Below are positions 3,817 through 11,406 of a stretch of DNA of 23,187 nucleotides, one piece after another. Location: NCBI GenBank assembly GCA_026985515.1, contig JALSQH010000255.1, positions 1 to 23,187 of the forward strand, given 5' to 3'. The stretch comes from a bacterium. GTDB taxonomy: Bacteria > JALSQH01. Made by a program: the position numbers and the translations under genes. The number at the start of each line of letters is the position of its first letter. The stretch's first letter is position 1. The notes under the pieces were generated by a model. The model did no database searches, was not told the origin of the DNA, and saw only the letters and a list, made by a program, of their open reading frames with translations.

Positions 3817-4374
3817 TCAATCTTTTCCATAGAGAACAGCAAGGATTTTCAGGGGAGCATCACCATGGGCCTTTACTAAATGGGGAATACTCGCCCGGTA
3901 GTAAATGCTGTCTCCAGGATATAGAATGTCCCTGAACTCACCAAGGATGACCTCCATTTCCCCCTCAAGGACATATATAAATTCTTCACCCTCATGAACA
4001 GAAGGAGATTCCTTTGAGGCAGAAGGCTCAATGGTAACTATAAAAGGCTCCATGTGCCTGTCAGAGAAACCGTAACCAAGGGATTCGTAGGTGTATCCAT
4101 AAAATGATCCATCGCTTGATCCATATCTGGCAACCTGCTTCCTCTCATCCTTCCGCACAATTGTGAAATCACCACCACTCTCTTCTCCGAAAAAGGCACT
4201 CAGGGGAACCTCAAGGGCTCTTGAAAGTTTAAGCAACATCCCGAGAGATGGAGATTCCATATGATTTTCAACCTGAAGGAGCACAGAGGGAGATATCCCG
4301 GTCATCTTTGAAAGTTCCTCTAACTCAATCCCCTTATCTTCCCTTATCATCCTTATTCTTTCGCCTATCCTCAT
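3817..4374 (-). CDS. XRE-family regulator with C-terminal cupin sensor domain
   Basis: This 185-residue protein has an N-terminal XRE/Cro-type helix-turn-helix (residues about 1-60, ending in the usual LSRALEVPLSAFF helix-5 region) and a C-terminal cupin-2 domain (about 108-180). The cupin shows the HEGEEFIYVLEGE strand pair and the PGDSIYY...PH second motif, with His and Glu residues that could hold a metal. Proteins of this architecture sense a small metabolite and act as local repressors or activators. The chosen start is the ATG at 4374, which overlaps the pyrD stop as TGATG and has AGGAGG 7 nt upstream. A TTG three bases earlier is possible but too close to that site. It is the last gene of the rsmI-to-pyrD run; its targets cannot be read from the sequence. 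Confidence 0.88.
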   Translation of the reverse strand: MRIGERIRMIREDKGIELEELSKMTGISPSVLLQVENHMESPSLGMLLKLSRALEVPLSAFFGEESGGDFTIVRKDERKQVARYGSSDGSFYGYTYESLGYGFSDRHMEPFIVTIEPSASKESPSVHEGEEFIYVLEGEMEVILGEFRDILYPGDSIYYRASIPHLVKAHGDAPLKILAVLYGKD

Positions 4375-5294
4375 CAAAAATCCTCCTGTATTTCAATCGA
4401 CCCTGAAAAGGACTGCACTGAGTCTATTTTATACTTTTTCATCTTCGCTGGCAAATCTTCAATGATTTCTTCTATGATGGATGGATTTCTGAATGTGGCA
4501 CTTCCAATCTGGACAGCTCTGGCACCAACCATAATAAACTCAAGTACATCTTCAGCACTGGTTATCCCTCCCACCCCCACAACATCAATATTGCAGTTTG
4601 ATGCTACCTCCCAGACAAGCTTCAGAGCCACCGGTTTGATGGCGGGACCAGATAACCCACCGGTTACATTTGCAAGTACTGGCCTCCTCGTTGCAAGATC
4701 AACAGCCATAGCAGGAATGGTGTTTATCAGAACAACTGCACTTGCACCCCCTTCCCGGGCTGCCCTGGCAATTGTAAGAATATCTGTTACATTGGGAGAA
4801 AGCTTGACCCATACATCCTTATTTTTCGCTTTTTTCTTTACCCTGCTGACCACCTTTTCAACACTTTTTGGAGAGGTACCAAAATGGATTCCCCCTTCAT
4901 GAACATTGGGACAGGAAACATTAACTTCCAGGGCTGAAACGCCTTCCTCGGAAGATAATATATCTGCCAGTTCCTGAAAATCTTCATAGGATGTGGCAAA
5001 AATATTTGCAATCACAGGCACACCATATTTCCTCAGGTGGGGCAGTTTCTCTTTTACAAAAGCCTCAACCCCGATATTTTCCAGCCCTATTGCATTTAAC
5101 ATTCCACAGCATGTTTCAACAATTCTTGGAGGCGGATTCCCGTGTATGGGTTTCAGAGACAGACCTTTTGTGACTATTGCCCCCACCTTCTCCAGATTCA
5201 CCCACCTCTCCATCTCCACACCATATCCGAAGGTGCCTGAAGCTGGCATTACAGGATTTTTCAGTGTTAACGAACCAACTCTGGTTTCAAGCAT
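4374..5294 (-). CDS. pyrD: Dihydroorotate dehydrogenase B (NAD+), catalytic subunit
   Basis: PyrD oxidises dihydroorotate to orotate, the fourth step of de novo pyrimidine synthesis, in the cytoplasm. The 306-residue protein is an FMN-binding TIM barrel of class 1B. The active-site base is Cys128 in NVSCPN, where class 2 enzymes have Ser. Other family features are the N-terminal NPVMPASGTFG segment, the INT motif near residue 192, and the phosphate-binding GVGGI and VQIGSA segments near the C-terminus. A GGAGG ribosome site lies about 4-5 nt before the ATG. The gene starts 11 nt after the stop of pyrK, its electron-transfer partner, which is the usual pairing for class 1B. It overlaps the following regulator gene by 1 nt. 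Confidence 0.96.
   Translation of the reverse strand: MLETRVGSLTLKNPVMPASGTFGYGVEMERWVNLEKVGAIVTKGLSLKPIHGNPPPRIVETCCGMLNAIGLENIGVEAFVKEKLPHLRKYGVPVIANIFATSYEDFQELADILSSEEGVSALEVNVSCPNVHEGGIHFGTSPKSVEKVVSRVKKKAKNKDVWVKLSPNVTDILTIARAAREGGASAVVLINTIPAMAVDLATRRPVLANVTGGLSGPAIKPVALKLVWEVASNCNIDVVGVGGITSAEDVLEFIMVGARAVQIGSATFRNPSIIEEIIEDLPAKMKKYKIDSVQSFSGSIEIQEDF
4382..4387 (-). promoter_or_regulatory. Ribosome binding site AGGAGG deciding the regulator start
   Basis: A perfect AGGAGG lies within the last codons of pyrD, 7 nt before the ATG at 4374. It supports the ATG over the TTG at 4377 and indicates independent but coupled initiation of the XRE/cupin gene. Confidence 0.7.
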
Positions 5295-6560: not shown

Positions 6561-7528
6561 GTGAACCCCGCTCCAAATGAAGCCATTATTACAAGATCCC
6601 CATCCTTTATCTTTCCCTCCTGCAGTGCCTCAGTCAGGGCTATGGGAATGGTGGCGGCAGTGGTATTTCCATATTTGTGAATGTTGTTGTACATCTTCTC
6701 ATCAGGTATGCCCATCTTCCTCGCAACCATCTGATTGATCCTGAGATTGGCCTGATGGGGAATTACCATGCCTATATCCTCCACAGTATACCCATTAAAT
6801 TCAAGAGCCTCATTTATAACCTCAACCATCCTCTTTACAGCATGTTTGAAAACGAACTGTCCGTCCATATAAGGATAGTGACCTCCATTATCAAGAATCT
6901 TATGAGTAATCCTTGGAATGCGCTTGCTTGACGGCCATTCAGTCCATAGTTTATCAAAGTATTTCCCCTCAGCATGAAGATGAGTCGAAAGAATACCTTT
7001 ATTTTTCTCCTCAGTGGCTGTAAGAATAACTGCACCCGCCCCATCACCAAAAAGGACCGTTACATCTCTTCCCCCTGTGGAGAAATCAAGTCCTGTAGAA
7101 TGCACCTCAGCACCAACCACAAGGACATTTTTGTACTGGCCCACCCTTATGGCATTATCAGCCACCATGAGAGAATAGAGAAATCCGGTACATTGATCCC
7201 TTATATCAATGGCTCCCACATTCCTTGCTCCAATGTAATGCTGCAGCAGGACGCCTGATCCGGGCAAGGCATAATCTGGAGAAAGTGTTGCAAAGACAAT
7301 GAAATCAATATCTTCAGGCTTCATTCCCGCCGATTGGAGTGCCCTTTTTGAAGCTTCATAGGCAAGATCAGCAGCACCCACTCCATCTTCAACATAGTGT
7401 CTTTCTTTAATTCCTGTCCTCTGCTGAATCCACTCATCAGAGGTATCCATCAACTTCTCAAGATCATGATTGGTAACAACTCTGGGAGGTACATAAAAAC
7501 CGGTACCCACTATTTTTGACCTGTACAT
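6533..7528 (-). CDS. fabH: 3-oxoacyl-[acyl-carrier-protein] synthase III (KAS III)
   Basis: FabH condenses an acyl-CoA, normally acetyl-CoA, with malonyl-ACP to start fatty-acid synthesis. The 331-residue protein has the catalytic triad of the family: Cys113 in IRDQCTGF, His in IPHQANLRI, and Asn in HKYGNTTAATIP. The early segment DEWIQQRTGIKERH is the family hallmark. The start is the ATG at 7528, supported by GGAG 6 nt upstream (7535-7538). A TTG at 7588 in the same frame would add 20 non-conserved residues and would lie inside the predicted promoter. The gene follows rsmI after 40 nt and overlaps rimI. Variation in the acyl-binding region (residues about 195-225) leaves the starter-unit preference open. 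Confidence 0.94.
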   Translation of the reverse strand: MYRSKIVGTGFYVPPRVVTNHDLEKLMDTSDEWIQQRTGIKERHYVEDGVGAADLAYEASKRALQSAGMKPEDIDFIVFATLSPDYALPGSGVLLQHYIGARNVGAIDIRDQCTGFLYSLMVADNAIRVGQYKNVLVVGAEVHSTGLDFSTGGRDVTVLFGDGAGAVILTATEEKNKGILSTHLHAEGKYFDKLWTEWPSSKRIPRITHKILDNGGHYPYMDGQFVFKHAVKRMVEVINEALEFNGYTVEDIGMVIPHQANLRINQMVARKMGIPDEKMYNNIHKYGNTTAATIPIALTEALQEGKIKDGDLVIMASFGAGFTWASAAMIW

Positions 7529-7534
7529 CTTCTT

Positions 7535-7538
7535 CTCC
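7535..7538 (-). promoter_or_regulatory. Ribosome binding site GGAG of fabH
   Basis: AAAGGAG on the minus strand ends 6 nt before the ATG at 7528. It fixes the fabH start at that ATG rather than at the upstream in-frame TTG. Confidence 0.65.
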
Positions 7539-7559
7539 TTTCGGGGTTTCCAGTTTAAA

Positions 7560-7588
7560 ATTGTATTACTAATCTCTCCTTTTATCAA
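7560..7588 (-). promoter_or_regulatory. Predicted internal promoter upstream of fabH
   Basis: On the minus strand TTGATA (7583-7588, 5/6 match) is followed by a 17-nt spacer and TACAAT (7560-7565, 5/6 match). The -35 box and spacer lie in the last codons of rsmI. Transcription would start near 7553, 25 nt before the fabH ATG and upstream of its ribosome site. The call is by consensus match only. Confidence 0.45.
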
Positions 7589-8249
7589 CTATGATAACAA
7601 ATTCCCTCTTTCTGTCATGCTCCCTGAAATAATTGAGGGCATCCTTTACTCTTCCTCTGAAGATAAACTCATTTTCAGTTGTTAAATCACATGCAACAAC
7701 CACTCTCCTTGCGGGGCCAAAGACTCTTTTTATGTCATGAAGAACAGAGATCAGGCGATAAGGTGTATCCATAAAAACAATGGGATACTTGAAGGAGAGA
7801 AGTTTTTTAAGAGCCTTTCTCCTCTCCTCCTTTTTTCTGGGGAGTAATCCATAATAAAAAAATCTCTTAAAATCAATTCCACTCACAACGAGAGCTGCCA
7901 TCAGTGAGGAAGGACCTGGAACAGCCGTCACCTCTATTCCCTCTTCAATTGCCCTCTCCACAAATTTCCTCCCCGGGTCTTCAAAAAGGGGGGTACCTGC
8001 ATCGCTTATGAGAGCAATGGATTTCCCATTCTTGAGAAATTCTATGAAAACAGGTGTCCTTGCATCCTCATTGTGCTCATTGAGATTATCAATTGGGGTA
8101 GGAATACCAAGTGAATTCAAAAGCTTCCTTCCCTCTTTTAGTTCTTCACACACCACCAGGTCAACACTCTTCAGAACCTTTATTGCTCTGAGAGTAATAT
8201 CCTCAGGGTTTCCTATAGGGACTGAGACAATGTAGAGTTTTCCAGCCAT
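7569..8249 (-). CDS. rsmI: RsmI-type ribosomal RNA small subunit (cytidine-2'-O)-methyltransferase, short form
   Basis: RsmI uses S-adenosylmethionine to 2'-O-methylate C1402 of 16S rRNA in the decoding centre. The 226-residue protein has the tetrapyrrole-methylase fold with the family motifs LYIVSVPIGNPEDIT (residues 5-19), SDAGTPLF (82-89) and VPGPSS (110-115). Two features are odd. It ends right after the catalytic domain, whereas E. coli RsmI (286 residues) has about 55 further residues forming a C-terminal helical domain. The usual EDTR motif is replaced by EELKEG (35-40). A related rRNA or unknown target is therefore possible. I prefer the ATG at 8249 over a TTG at 8258 that falls inside a predicted -10 box. 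No ribosome site is visible; see the leaderless finding. Confidence 0.82.
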   Translation of the reverse strand: MAGKLYIVSVPIGNPEDITLRAIKVLKSVDLVVCEELKEGRKLLNSLGIPTPIDNLNEHNEDARTPVFIEFLKNGKSIALISDAGTPLFEDPGRKFVERAIEEGIEVTAVPGPSSLMAALVVSGIDFKRFFYYGLLPRKKEERRKALKKLLSFKYPIVFMDTPYRLISVLHDIKRVFGPARRVVVACDLTTENEFIFRGRVKDALNYFREHDRKREFVIIVDKRRD

Positions 8250-8257
8250 TGCTCTCA

Positions 8258-8285
8258 ATTATAACTTTAAAGCAAAATCTTGCAA
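8258..8285 (-). promoter_or_regulatory. Predicted promoter of the rsmI-fabH-rimI-pyrK-pyrD-XRE run
   Basis: Minus-strand TTGCAA (8280-8285), a 16-nt spacer (8264-8279) and a perfect TATAAT (8258-8263). Transcription would start near 8251, almost at the rsmI ATG (8249). The -35 hexamer is its own reverse complement and is shared with the opposite promoter. The call is by consensus match only. Confidence 0.5.
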
Positions 8286-8307
8286 AACTGCAACAATAAA
8301 CTATAAT
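8280..8307 (+). promoter_or_regulatory. Predicted promoter of the trmH-ade-hpt operon
   Basis: Plus-strand TTGCAA (8280-8285), a 16-nt spacer (8286-8301) and a perfect TATAAT (8302-8307). The start would be near 8314, leaving a leader of about 38 nt before the GTG at 8352 that ends in GGGGGA. The -35 box is the same palindromic hexamer used in the other direction. The call is by consensus match only. Confidence 0.55.
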
Positions 8308-8351
8308 TTTAAAGGTGAAGTGCAATCATCTACATATTTTCGGGGGATTCA

Positions 8352-9158
8352 GTGGAAATTAGAAGTGTCTCAAATGACAGGATAAGATTGCTGAGGAAGG
8401 CATATACCCACAGGAAGGTTGCAAGAGAGGAAAATATTTTTTTCCTGCCAGGGATAAATCTCTTTCGCGAATTTATCGACTCGGGAAGAAATTTCAGATA
8501 TATCCTCTACGCTCCCTCACGTCTGATAGAGAAAAATGAGAAATCTCTCCTGCGAAAACTTGAAGAAATGGAAAGGAGTTATACGGAAAAGGTCCTGAAA
8601 GTTACCAGGGTGATTCTTGAAAAATTTTCACCTGTTGCAGAGGATCAGGGTGTAATGGTGGTTGGCGAGAGGTTTCAATACACTCTGAAGGATATACTTA
8701 CAAGAAAAAACATTATCTTCCTCTACGATGTTCAGGATCCAGGCAATGTTGGCACAATCATGAGACTGGCTGAAGGCAACGAGGCTTCACTGATTCTGAC
8801 TGAAAATTCTGCCTCGCCTTTCAATGAAAAGGTTGTCAGGGCAAGTATGGGTAGCATTCTCAGGACACCTTTTTTTGTAGCAGGGAAACCAGAAGAAACA
8901 CTGGAGTTGTTAAGAAAGGAAAATTTCAAACTCATTTCCACCTCAACTGTGGGGGATAAGCCCTTTACAATTTCAACCAGTTTTGAGAAAAGAGCCTTTA
9001 TACTCGGAAATGAGGGACACGGAATTCCGGAAAAAGTAATGAAACTTTCAGATGTGGTGGTAAATATCCCGATGAAAGGCAAAATAAATTCCTACAATGT
9101 AGCAATCAGTGCCGCTCTTCTTCTTTGCCCACTACTTGCAGAGGAGGTAAAGAGTTGA
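8352..9158 (+). CDS. TrmH/SpoU-family RNA 2'-O-methyltransferase
   Basis: The 268-residue protein is a SPOUT-class methylase that 2'-O-methylates a ribose in rRNA or tRNA. Residues 1-100 match the small substrate-binding domain placed before the catalytic domain in RlmB/TsnR-like members. The knotted domain carries motif 1 with GNVGTIMRLAEG (131-142, catalytic-type Arg138), motif 2 ILGNEGHGI (217-225, Glu221) and motif 3 with VNIPMKGKINSYNVA (237-251). The RNA target cannot be told from sequence; 23S rRNA is the commonest for this layout. The start is a GTG at 8352, the first in-frame start after the promoter, with GGGGGA just upstream. It ends in a 4-nt TTGA overlap with the next gene. Confidence 0.9.
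   Translation: MEIRSVSNDRIRLLRKAYTHRKVAREENIFFLPGINLFREFIDSGRNFRYILYAPSRLIEKNEKSLLRKLEEMERSYTEKVLKVTRVILEKFSPVAEDQGVMVVGERFQYTLKDILTRKNIIFLYDVQDPGNVGTIMRLAEGNEASLILTENSASPFNEKVVRASMGSILRTPFFVAGKPEETLELLRKENFKLISTSTVGDKPFTISTSFEKRAFILGNEGHGIPEKVMKLSDVVVNIPMKGKINSYNVAISAALLLCPLLAEEVKS
9141..9147 (+). promoter_or_regulatory. Ribosome binding site GAGGAGG deciding the adenine deaminase start
   Basis: A strong GAGGAGG lies inside the last codons of the methylase gene, 7 nt before the TTG at 9155. It selects this TTG over the earlier in-frame TTG at 9125, which lies upstream of it. Confidence 0.75.
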
Positions 9159-10888
9159 AGTATCCCGGTTACAGAAAGATAAAAGAAATTCTGGCTGTGG
9201 CAAGGGGGGAGAAAAAGGGCGATATCCTTCTTACAAACTGCAGAATTGTGGATTTTTTCAGGGGTGAGATACTGAATTCAGATGTGACAATAAAAAATGG
9301 AATAATCGCAGGGACAGGAAAGGATTATGAAGGGGAAGAAACACTGGACTGCAAAGGTAAATTTTTGACGCCCGGGTTTATAGATGCCCATATTCACATT
9401 GAAAGTTCTCACCTGCTACCCTCCTTCTTCGGCGCAGAAGCGGCGAAGCATGGCACAACCACAATCATCACCGATCCTCATGAAATAGGAAATGCTCTGG
9501 GAAAGAGGGGTATAAAGTTTTTTATAAAAAACTCACAACTATCACCCATTGATATTTTCTTTCTCGTTCCATCCTGTGTTCCCGCAATAAAATTGTGGGA
9601 TATTTACGGGAATGAAATTGGAGAAGAGGAGATAAGGGAACTTCTTTCCAGCGAAAAGGTTTTAGGACTGGCGGAGATGATGAACTTTCCCGGCGTAATA
9701 AACGGTGACCGTGAAGTATGGGGGAAATTAGCTGCTGCGTGGGAAAGGATAAAAGATGGTCATGCACCCCTCGTATCAGGAAAAGCACTCAATGCATACC
9801 TGATTGGAGGAATTGGTTCTGACCATGAATCAACCCGGGTAGACGAGGCTCTGGAAAAGATTTCTCGTGGAATGATGGTGATGATCAGAGAAGGTAGTGC
9901 CGCCAAAAATCTTGACATTCTTCCCGGTGTGGTAAACAGGTACAACTTTGACAGAATAAGTCTTGTAAGTGATGACCTCTTACCCACAGAGCTTTTCAGG
10001 GAAGGACATATTGACAGGATAATGAGGAGGGCCAGAAAAAAGTATAATCTTGACCCCTATCTGCTGATTCGGATGGTAACATTTAACCCTGCCATCTACA
10101 TGCAGCTTACAGATAGAGGGATTGTGGCTCCAGGAAAAATCGCCGACCTTGTGATTCTTGAGGATCTCGATGATTTCAGGGTTTCAGTTACCATAAAAAA
10201 TGGAAAAATAGTCTATGATGCAGAAAAGGGGTATTTCTATCAGCCACCTAAACCATCCATTCCATCATATGTGGCAAAAAGCGTTAAACTTCCTCTGCTG
10301 AGGAAGGAGGATTTTATCTACAGCTGTGATAAAAATATGGTCAGGGCCATAGAAATAATTCCTGATCAGATCATAACCAGAGAAATAAAAATTGAACCTT
10401 CCAGAAAAGATGGGAAGATCGTTGCTGATCCGGAAAGGGACCTCAACAAAATTGCAGTGATAGACAGATACACCGGGAGGGGAAAAAGAGCCGTTGGACT
10501 CGTAAAGGGACTTGGCCTGAAGAGGGGAGCCATAGCTTCAACATACGCCCACGATACACACAATCTCATAATTTCAGGGGTCAACGATGAGGATATGGCT
10601 TTTGCAGGCAACAGAGTAAGGGAGATGGGTGGAGGCATGGTGGTCGTTGAGAATAAAAGAATTTTAGCAGAGTTTCCCCTCCCCGTTGGAGGGGTTGTTT
10701 CAGACCTGCCAGCAGTAAGTGTTGCAGAAAAAATGGAAAAATTGAATTCAGCAGCGAGGAAACTTGGCACCCACCTTCCTGATCCCTTTGTTACCCTTTC
10801 TTTCCTCTCATTGAGCGTTATTCCTGAATTGAAAATAACCCCTGCAGGACTGGTTAATCTTTCAAAAATGGAGAGGTCAGACTGCTGA
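9155..10888 (+). CDS. ade: Adenine deaminase
   Basis: Ade hydrolyses adenine to hypoxanthine and ammonia using a binuclear metal centre, in purine salvage. The 577-residue length fits the bacterial Ade family. The amidohydrolase metal motif DAHIHIESS is at about residues 78-86 (His79, His81), followed by TDPHEIGN (about 106-113), the NGDREVWGK segment, HAPLVSGKALNAY, and GIGSDHE. The C-terminal Ade domain contains AHDTHNLI and GGMVVV. The start is taken as TTG at 9155 on the strength of the GAGGAGG site; it overlaps the preceding stop as TTGA. The gene ends in a 1-nt overlap (TGATG) with the hypoxanthine phosphoribosyltransferase gene, whose enzyme consumes the product: a metabolic pair. Confidence 0.95.
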   Translation: MKYPGYRKIKEILAVARGEKKGDILLTNCRIVDFFRGEILNSDVTIKNGIIAGTGKDYEGEETLDCKGKFLTPGFIDAHIHIESSHLLPSFFGAEAAKHGTTTIITDPHEIGNALGKRGIKFFIKNSQLSPIDIFFLVPSCVPAIKLWDIYGNEIGEEEIRELLSSEKVLGLAEMMNFPGVINGDREVWGKLAAAWERIKDGHAPLVSGKALNAYLIGGIGSDHESTRVDEALEKISRGMMVMIREGSAAKNLDILPGVVNRYNFDRISLVSDDLLPTELFREGHIDRIMRRARKKYNLDPYLLIRMVTFNPAIYMQLTDRGIVAPGKIADLVILEDLDDFRVSVTIKNGKIVYDAEKGYFYQPPKPSIPSYVAKSVKLPLLRKEDFIYSCDKNMVRAIEIIPDQIITREIKIEPSRKDGKIVADPERDLNKIAVIDRYTGRGKRAVGLVKGLGLKRGAIASTYAHDTHNLIISGVNDEDMAFAGNRVREMGGGMVVVENKRILAEFPLPVGGVVSDLPAVSVAEKMEKLNSAARKLGTHLPDPFVTLSFLSLSVIPELKITPAGLVNLSKMERSDC

Positions 10889-11406
10889 TGAGACTTGAAA
10901 AGGTAATTGACAGGAAAGAAATTGAGAAAAGAGTTGCAGAACTGGGAAGAGAAATATCTGAATTTTATGGTGACAGGGAAATAGTTGTGATTGGAATATT
11001 AAAAGGGGCTTTCATCTTCATGGCTGACCTTGTTCGAAACATTTCAATTCCCATGAAGTTAGACTTCGTAAGAGCATCAAGTTACATTGGAGACAGAAGC
11101 TCGGGGAGTGTGGAAGTTGTATACACACCCTCAATAAGCATAAAAAATGAAGATATTCTCCTCGTAGAGGATATCCTTGACACAGGTCTCACAGCACACG
11201 TCATTAAAAATCAACTGATTAAATGGGGAGCAAGATCAGTCAAACTGTGTGCCCTGATTGACAGAAAAACCAACCGGAAGGAAATCACCGCTGACTTTCT
11301 GGGGTTTGAGCTTGAGGATAGCCGGTTTCTGGTTGGATACGGCCTTGATGTAAATGAGAAATTCCGGTATCTACCCGATGTTTTTGCAATTGTAAACGAG
11401 GATTAA
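10888..11406 (+). CDS. hpt: Hypoxanthine phosphoribosyltransferase
   Basis: Hpt joins hypoxanthine (or guanine) to PRPP, giving IMP or GMP. The 172-residue protein has the type I PRTase fold: the PPi loop ILKGAF (37-42), the flexible-loop region SSYIGDR (64-70), the PRPP signature LLVEDILDTGLTA (91-103) and the base-binding end VGYGLDVNEKFRYLPDV. Its ATG overlaps the ade stop by one base, so the two are translationally coupled and together convert adenine to IMP. It is probably the last gene of the operon starting at 8352; 127 nt separate it from the next plus-strand gene, but I see no clear terminator hairpin there. Confidence 0.95.
   Translation: MRLEKVIDRKEIEKRVAELGREISEFYGDREIVVIGILKGAFIFMADLVRNISIPMKLDFVRASSYIGDRSSGSVEVVYTPSISIKNEDILLVEDILDTGLTAHVIKNQLIKWGARSVKLCALIDRKTNRKEITADFLGFELEDSRFLVGYGLDVNEKFRYLPDVFAIVNED

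Follow-up and report, generated by a model that had tools for sequence, protein, structure and literature searches.

A palindromic TTGCAA between rsmI and trmH-ade-hpt as the probable common -35 box of two back-to-back promoters

We analysed a stretch of bacterial DNA of 23,187 nucleotides, referred to here as the window, in which two runs of genes diverge from a short intergenic gap. On the minus strand the first gene is rsmI (7569-8249), encoding the 16S rRNA (cytidine-1402-2'-O)-methyltransferase (TIGR00096, 198.6 bits; cut-off 167.9), and it is followed in order by fabH, rimI, pyrK, pyrD and an xre/cupin gene. Family scans confirmed FabH, PyrD and RimI in this run, and the XRE-cupin (HTH_3/cupin) protein is encoded at 3817-4377. 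On the plus strand, the first gene of trmH-ade-hpt extends from a GTG start at 8352 to 9158; its product is a TrmH/RlmB-like RNA 2'-O-methyltransferase of the SpoU type, scoring 112 bits with TIGR00186 and thus falling below the RlmB cut-off of 160. Genes for adenine deaminase (ade) and hypoxanthine phosphoribosyltransferase (hpt) occupy 9155-11406, in end-to-start overlap with trmH, and both products score over their cut-offs (TIGR01178 and TIGR01203). The longest minus-strand open reading frame would begin rsmI at a TTG at 8258; this start was rejected in favour of the ATG at 8249-8247, from which translation gives the RsmI N-terminus, MAGKLYIV. No Rfam match to an RNA element was found within 7000-9500. 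A second RsmI-like protein (41% identical) is encoded elsewhere in the host genome (G000:C71:8613-9218, in L113).

The gap between rsmI and trmH contains a 50-bp element at 8258-8307 whose layout can be read directly. Positions 8258-8263 read ATTATA, which is TATAAT on the minus strand (8263-8258) and forms the -10 box of the putative rsmI promoter; positions 8302-8307 read TATAAT and form the plus-strand -10 box of the putative trmH-ade-hpt promoter. Midway, at 8280-8285, lies the palindrome TTGCAA, which reads the same on both strands and is the only hexamer that starts with TTG on each of them. The intervening spacers, 8264-8279 on the rsmI side and 8286-8301 on the trmH side, are 16 nt each, exactly the TATAAT/TTGCAA/TATAAT symmetry with 16/16 spacing set out in the preliminary description. 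One hexamer on both strands therefore stands at a legal distance from two -10 boxes in a divergent gap. A consensus scan recovered both promoters, and when tested each half carried the features of a sigma-70-type promoter, namely a TATAAT-like -10 box and a TTG-type -35 box 16-18 nt apart. Both -10 boxes are perfect; TTGCAA agrees with TTGACA at 4 of 6 positions, so neither -35 box is strong. The scan also found the minus promoter in an alternative register, with TTTGCA at 17 nt, and if that register is the one used, the two -35 boxes would overlap by five bases rather than coincide. The -10 boxes are 38 bp apart. Transcription is predicted to start at 8313-8315 on the plus strand, 7 nt after the -10 box, and at 8249-8251 on the minus strand, overlapping or just before the rsmI ATG.

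Both halves fit the promoter grammar of the lineage, which we derived from samples of the host genome (G000; about 0.85 of 2.36 Mb) and of a relative (G001; 0.21 Mb), leaving the rsmI/trmH locus and 17 contigs fetched for carrying the motif out of the enrichment counts. Among 118 gene-facing TATAAT boxes, a TTG preceded the box at 16 nt in 30 cases and at 17 nt in 15, the other counted spacings having 0-6 each. Hexamers enriched as -35 boxes with near-consensus -10 boxes included TTGACA (28 observed, 1.2 expected), TTGCAT (11 and 1.05) and TTGCAA (7 and 0.6), and both genomes encode RpoD-like sigma factors. Promoters of the lineage thus most often have a 16-nt spacer and regularly use TTGCA(A/T) as a -35 variant, so that each half of the element has the form of an ordinary sigma-70 promoter.

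The arrangement is not random. A search of the window for the 50-bp pattern with at most 3 mismatches gave a single occurrence (0.01 expected), and in 400,000 simulated gaps of 93 bp, with the composition of the lineage's divergent gaps, the pattern was absent in its exact form, with 15-18 nt spacers, and with relaxed -10 boxes. Among 386 genomes, a version with 15-17 nt spacers is present in five, two of which are accounted for by the rsmI/trmH locus and its ortholog. The other three are unrelated to one another and to the host, which shows that isolated occurrences do arise among that many genomes and counts in favour of a mere chance alignment of A/T-rich hexamers. Given the simulation and the conservation described below, we regard such an alignment as extremely unlikely.

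Conservation in relatives had been named beforehand as a check that could refute the shared box, and the element came through it in the single relative available. This relative, G001, belongs to another genus of the same family and is the sole family member among the 386 genomes, with none of intermediate rank; its RsmI is 74-76% identical to that of the host, and a contig scan for further RsmI relatives returned only homologs of up to 43% identity. The rsmI/trmH gap of G001 aligns without indels across the 50 bp, with 39 of 50 positions identical overall, 18 of 18 in the three boxes and 21 of 32 in the spacers, and both 16-nt spacings are kept. The architecture is thus maintained while the spacers diverge, in one relative. 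By comparison, the rsmI orthologs of the two genomes are 41% identical at third codon positions and match at 32 of 72 four-fold sites (44%), a rate at which all 18 box bases would match with a probability of 0.44^18 = 5e-7. From the difference between the boxes and the four-fold sites in this single comparison, the boxes and the 16/16 spacing are very probably under selection. Gene order, with rsmI-fabH...pyrD-xre facing trmH-ade-hpt, is likewise kept in G001 to the contig limits. The TATAA(C/T)TTTAAAG direct repeat that spans both -10 regions of the window (8260-8272 and 8302-8314) is not kept in G001 and was dropped as a feature. In the trmH ortholog of G001, the predicted GTG start is immediately followed by a run of 16 A residues (L112 2843-2858), a candidate slippage site or assembly artefact.

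The distance between the minus-strand -10 box and rsmI bears on how this gene may be expressed. Between the end of TATAAT and the rsmI ATG there are 8 nt in the window and 9 nt in G001, too few for a leader with a Shine-Dalgarno sequence. With the start codon at 8249-8247, a transcription start near 8250 would leave a leader of about 0-3 nt, and from these distances the rsmI mRNA is probably leaderless or nearly so. In sampled genes of G000 and G001, -10 boxes lie at two preferred distances from the start codon, one peaking at 7-9 nt (plus another 6 at 11) and the other at about 21-31 nt; leaderless mRNAs thus appear to be common in the lineage beside genes led by AGGAGG. It has been previously reported that in leaderless genes of other bacteria the start codon is preceded, at about 10-12 bp, by a TA-like signal (PMC3160421; also PMC12340547). 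The rsmI -10 box at 8-9 nt in both genomes, within the lineage peak, resembles that arrangement, although here the divergent partner of the gene has a conventional leader.

One loose end for a leaderless rsmI is found in G001, where a GGAG lies between TATAAT and the ATG, 5 nt before the latter, and would be a wasted Shine-Dalgarno sequence if the mRNA began at the predicted position. The same GGAG would be expected if only the trmH promoter were real, the minus-strand TATAAT being merely A/T-rich sequence beside the start of rsmI, and rsmI being transcribed from further upstream and translated with a Shine-Dalgarno sequence. However, the minus TATAAT and its spacing are conserved as well as the plus ones, a consensus scan found no other minus promoter within the gap, only GAGAG stands directly ahead of the rsmI ATG in the window, and the 7-9 nt arrangement is seen in many genes of the lineage. 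We therefore consider a trmH promoter acting alone very unlikely.

We also weighed whether the symmetry could reflect a binding protein instead of two promoters. Outside the boxes, the spacers match their own mirror at 4 of 16 and 5 of 16 positions, as expected by chance; extended dyad symmetry is lacking, and the element was rejected as the dimer operator of a repressor. Symmetry limited to the boxes fits two promoters better than it fits one such operator. There is, nevertheless, a conserved core around the -35 box, CAGTTTTGCAAGATTTTG on the minus strand (8273-8290), which is identical to G001 at 18 of 18 positions and so exceeds the hexamer, more than plain sharing of a -35 box requires. 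The flanks past the hexamer are candidate upstream contacts or a regulator site, and their conservation makes an additional contact or a regulator possible. The core might even be mainly the site of a regulator that sits between or over the two promoters and governs them jointly, such as the XRE-cupin protein whose gene lies downstream in the minus run; an ORF of similar size occupies the corresponding place in G001. Against this, the dyad symmetry of the core is limited to TTGCAA, no operator that would match it was identified, and conserved -35 flanks are also found at other shared loci that have no known regulator. On balance, a core devoted mainly to a regulator seems unlikely.

Taken together, these findings identify the element as a real and conserved divergent promoter, compact in layout, and as a variant on an already known type. 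We consider it likely, with good though not full confidence, that two sigma-70-type promoters of ordinary form stand exactly back to back in it, with TTGCAA as the -35 box of both; promoter grammar, conservation and gene order all support the earlier proposal that this one hexamer serves both operons. From these features we infer transcription from both sides. Polymerase would dock in either orientation on the same TTGCAA. Facing left, it would begin the rsmI transcript at the AUG or no more than about 3 nt from it, which would make the mRNA leaderless, and continue toward fabH-rimI-pyrK-pyrD; facing right, it would start near 8314 and transcribe a leader of about 38 nt before reaching trmH-ade-hpt.

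The footprint of RNA polymerase usually extends from about -55 to +20. With start sites near 8250 and 8314, some 63 bp apart, a polymerase bound one way would cover the opposite -10 box, and docking would be exclusive. Mutual exclusion at 8258-8307 is near-certain on this geometry and the usual footprint, in agreement with the preliminary description, which had held that two polymerases could not occupy TTGCAA together. Its further proposal, that the shared -35 box is a regulatory device in which competition for polymerase trades off the pyrimidine/lipid and purine-salvage operons as a built-in switch, fared differently. Mutual exclusion and the conservation of the arrangement in G001 favour such a device, and in E. 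coli bidirectional promoters, raised transcription in one direction can repress the other (PMC12825309). In that work, however, all five promoters had mutually exclusive binding and yet a basal transcription too low for competition; repression of one direction by the other required strong activation of the latter, and the constrained direction also showed less noise (PMC12825309). Nothing at the present locus supplies feedback, cooperativity or bistability, several of the genes (rsmI, trmH and rimI) are unrelated to nucleotide balance, and other conserved pairs that share TTGCAA (MCP/hypothetical and MFS/LapA-like, described below) have no such metabolic logic. A switch between the two operons is accordingly unsupported and quite unlikely. 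Since no feedback is visible, the element is more plainly read as a fixed two-way promoter, and the likely outcome would be mild competition between two housekeeping operons, of weak effect, rather than on/off control.

Back-to-back or overlapping divergent promoters of neighbouring operons are a textbook class, exemplified by lambda PR/PRM. The element resembles them in having two outward promoters in a short intergenic gap with overlapping polymerase footprints, and differs in that its -35 hexamers coincide exactly in one palindrome with equal spacers. A second comparison is offered by the bidirectional promoters described by Warman, Grainger and colleagues, which share a -10 element and have start sites 7-25 bp apart, most often 18 (PMC12825309, PMC10268837). 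Near-symmetric core DNA, two mutually exclusive polymerase orientations and divergent transcripts are common to both; here, in contrast, it is the -35 box that the two promoters have in common, each has its own -10 box and the predicted starts lie much further apart, which places the element outside that class as defined (PMC10268837). A literature search for a shared -35 box found nothing relevant, and subscription journals, mostly outside its scope, may hold earlier examples. The interest of the locus is that the shared element is the -35 box, conserved base for base in a sister genus, where known bidirectional promoters share the -10 box. Furthermore, such promoters can be picked out by a simple sequence rule even where a genome has no RNA data, and, if transcription is confirmed, they would provide natural minimal constructs for studying the effect of exclusive polymerase docking on paired output and noise.

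Sharing of the -35 box recurs, with conservation, elsewhere: other gene pairs show it, including one from an unrelated family. The sampled divergent gaps contained a second TTGCAA common to two divergent promoters; it lies where an MCP gene and a small gene with no match in Pfam diverge, and this pair is conserved in both genomes with spacers of 17/18 nt (L238 ~7874-7949, L247 ~2701-2847). In G014, one of the five genomes counted above and from an unrelated family, the exact pattern with 15-17 nt spacers lies between MFS and LapA-like genes, and in a second genus of that family, whose MFS protein is 76% identical, the boxes are kept while the spacers diverge (L256, L295, L297 ~1501-1550). A further TTGCAA match, in G396, was rejected because it lies inside an ORF. 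When compared with centres of equal composition (WWSSWW), independent TTGCAA loci fell in divergent gaps in 3 of 4 cases, as against about 2 of 25 for the others (Fisher P-value 0.01; small numbers, with group sizes counted by eye), which also argues against chance alignment at the rsmI/trmH locus. Offsets of 0 or -1 between the -35 boxes of divergent pairs turned up in three gaps of the unbiased sample, representing two independent loci, and numbers this small do not allow a firm statement for the whole genome. On a broader reading, TTGCAA would be a hub around which divergent promoter pairs of A/T-rich bacteria form again and again under selection, with independent origins at several gene pairs, kept because exclusive docking fixes the output ratio of two operons or lowers noise; we offer this tentatively and think it rather doubtful.

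A related layout is seen in the perR-like/peroxiredoxin gap of G000 (L120 ~10342-10419), where both promoters lie on the near-palindrome AACTTGACAAGTT and have TTGACAA in common, offset by one base. This gap was not counted as a conserved sharing pair: in G001 (L290 ~340-415) the promoter of the divergent partner is absent and only the perR side is kept, with the perR promoter and ACTTGTCAAG.
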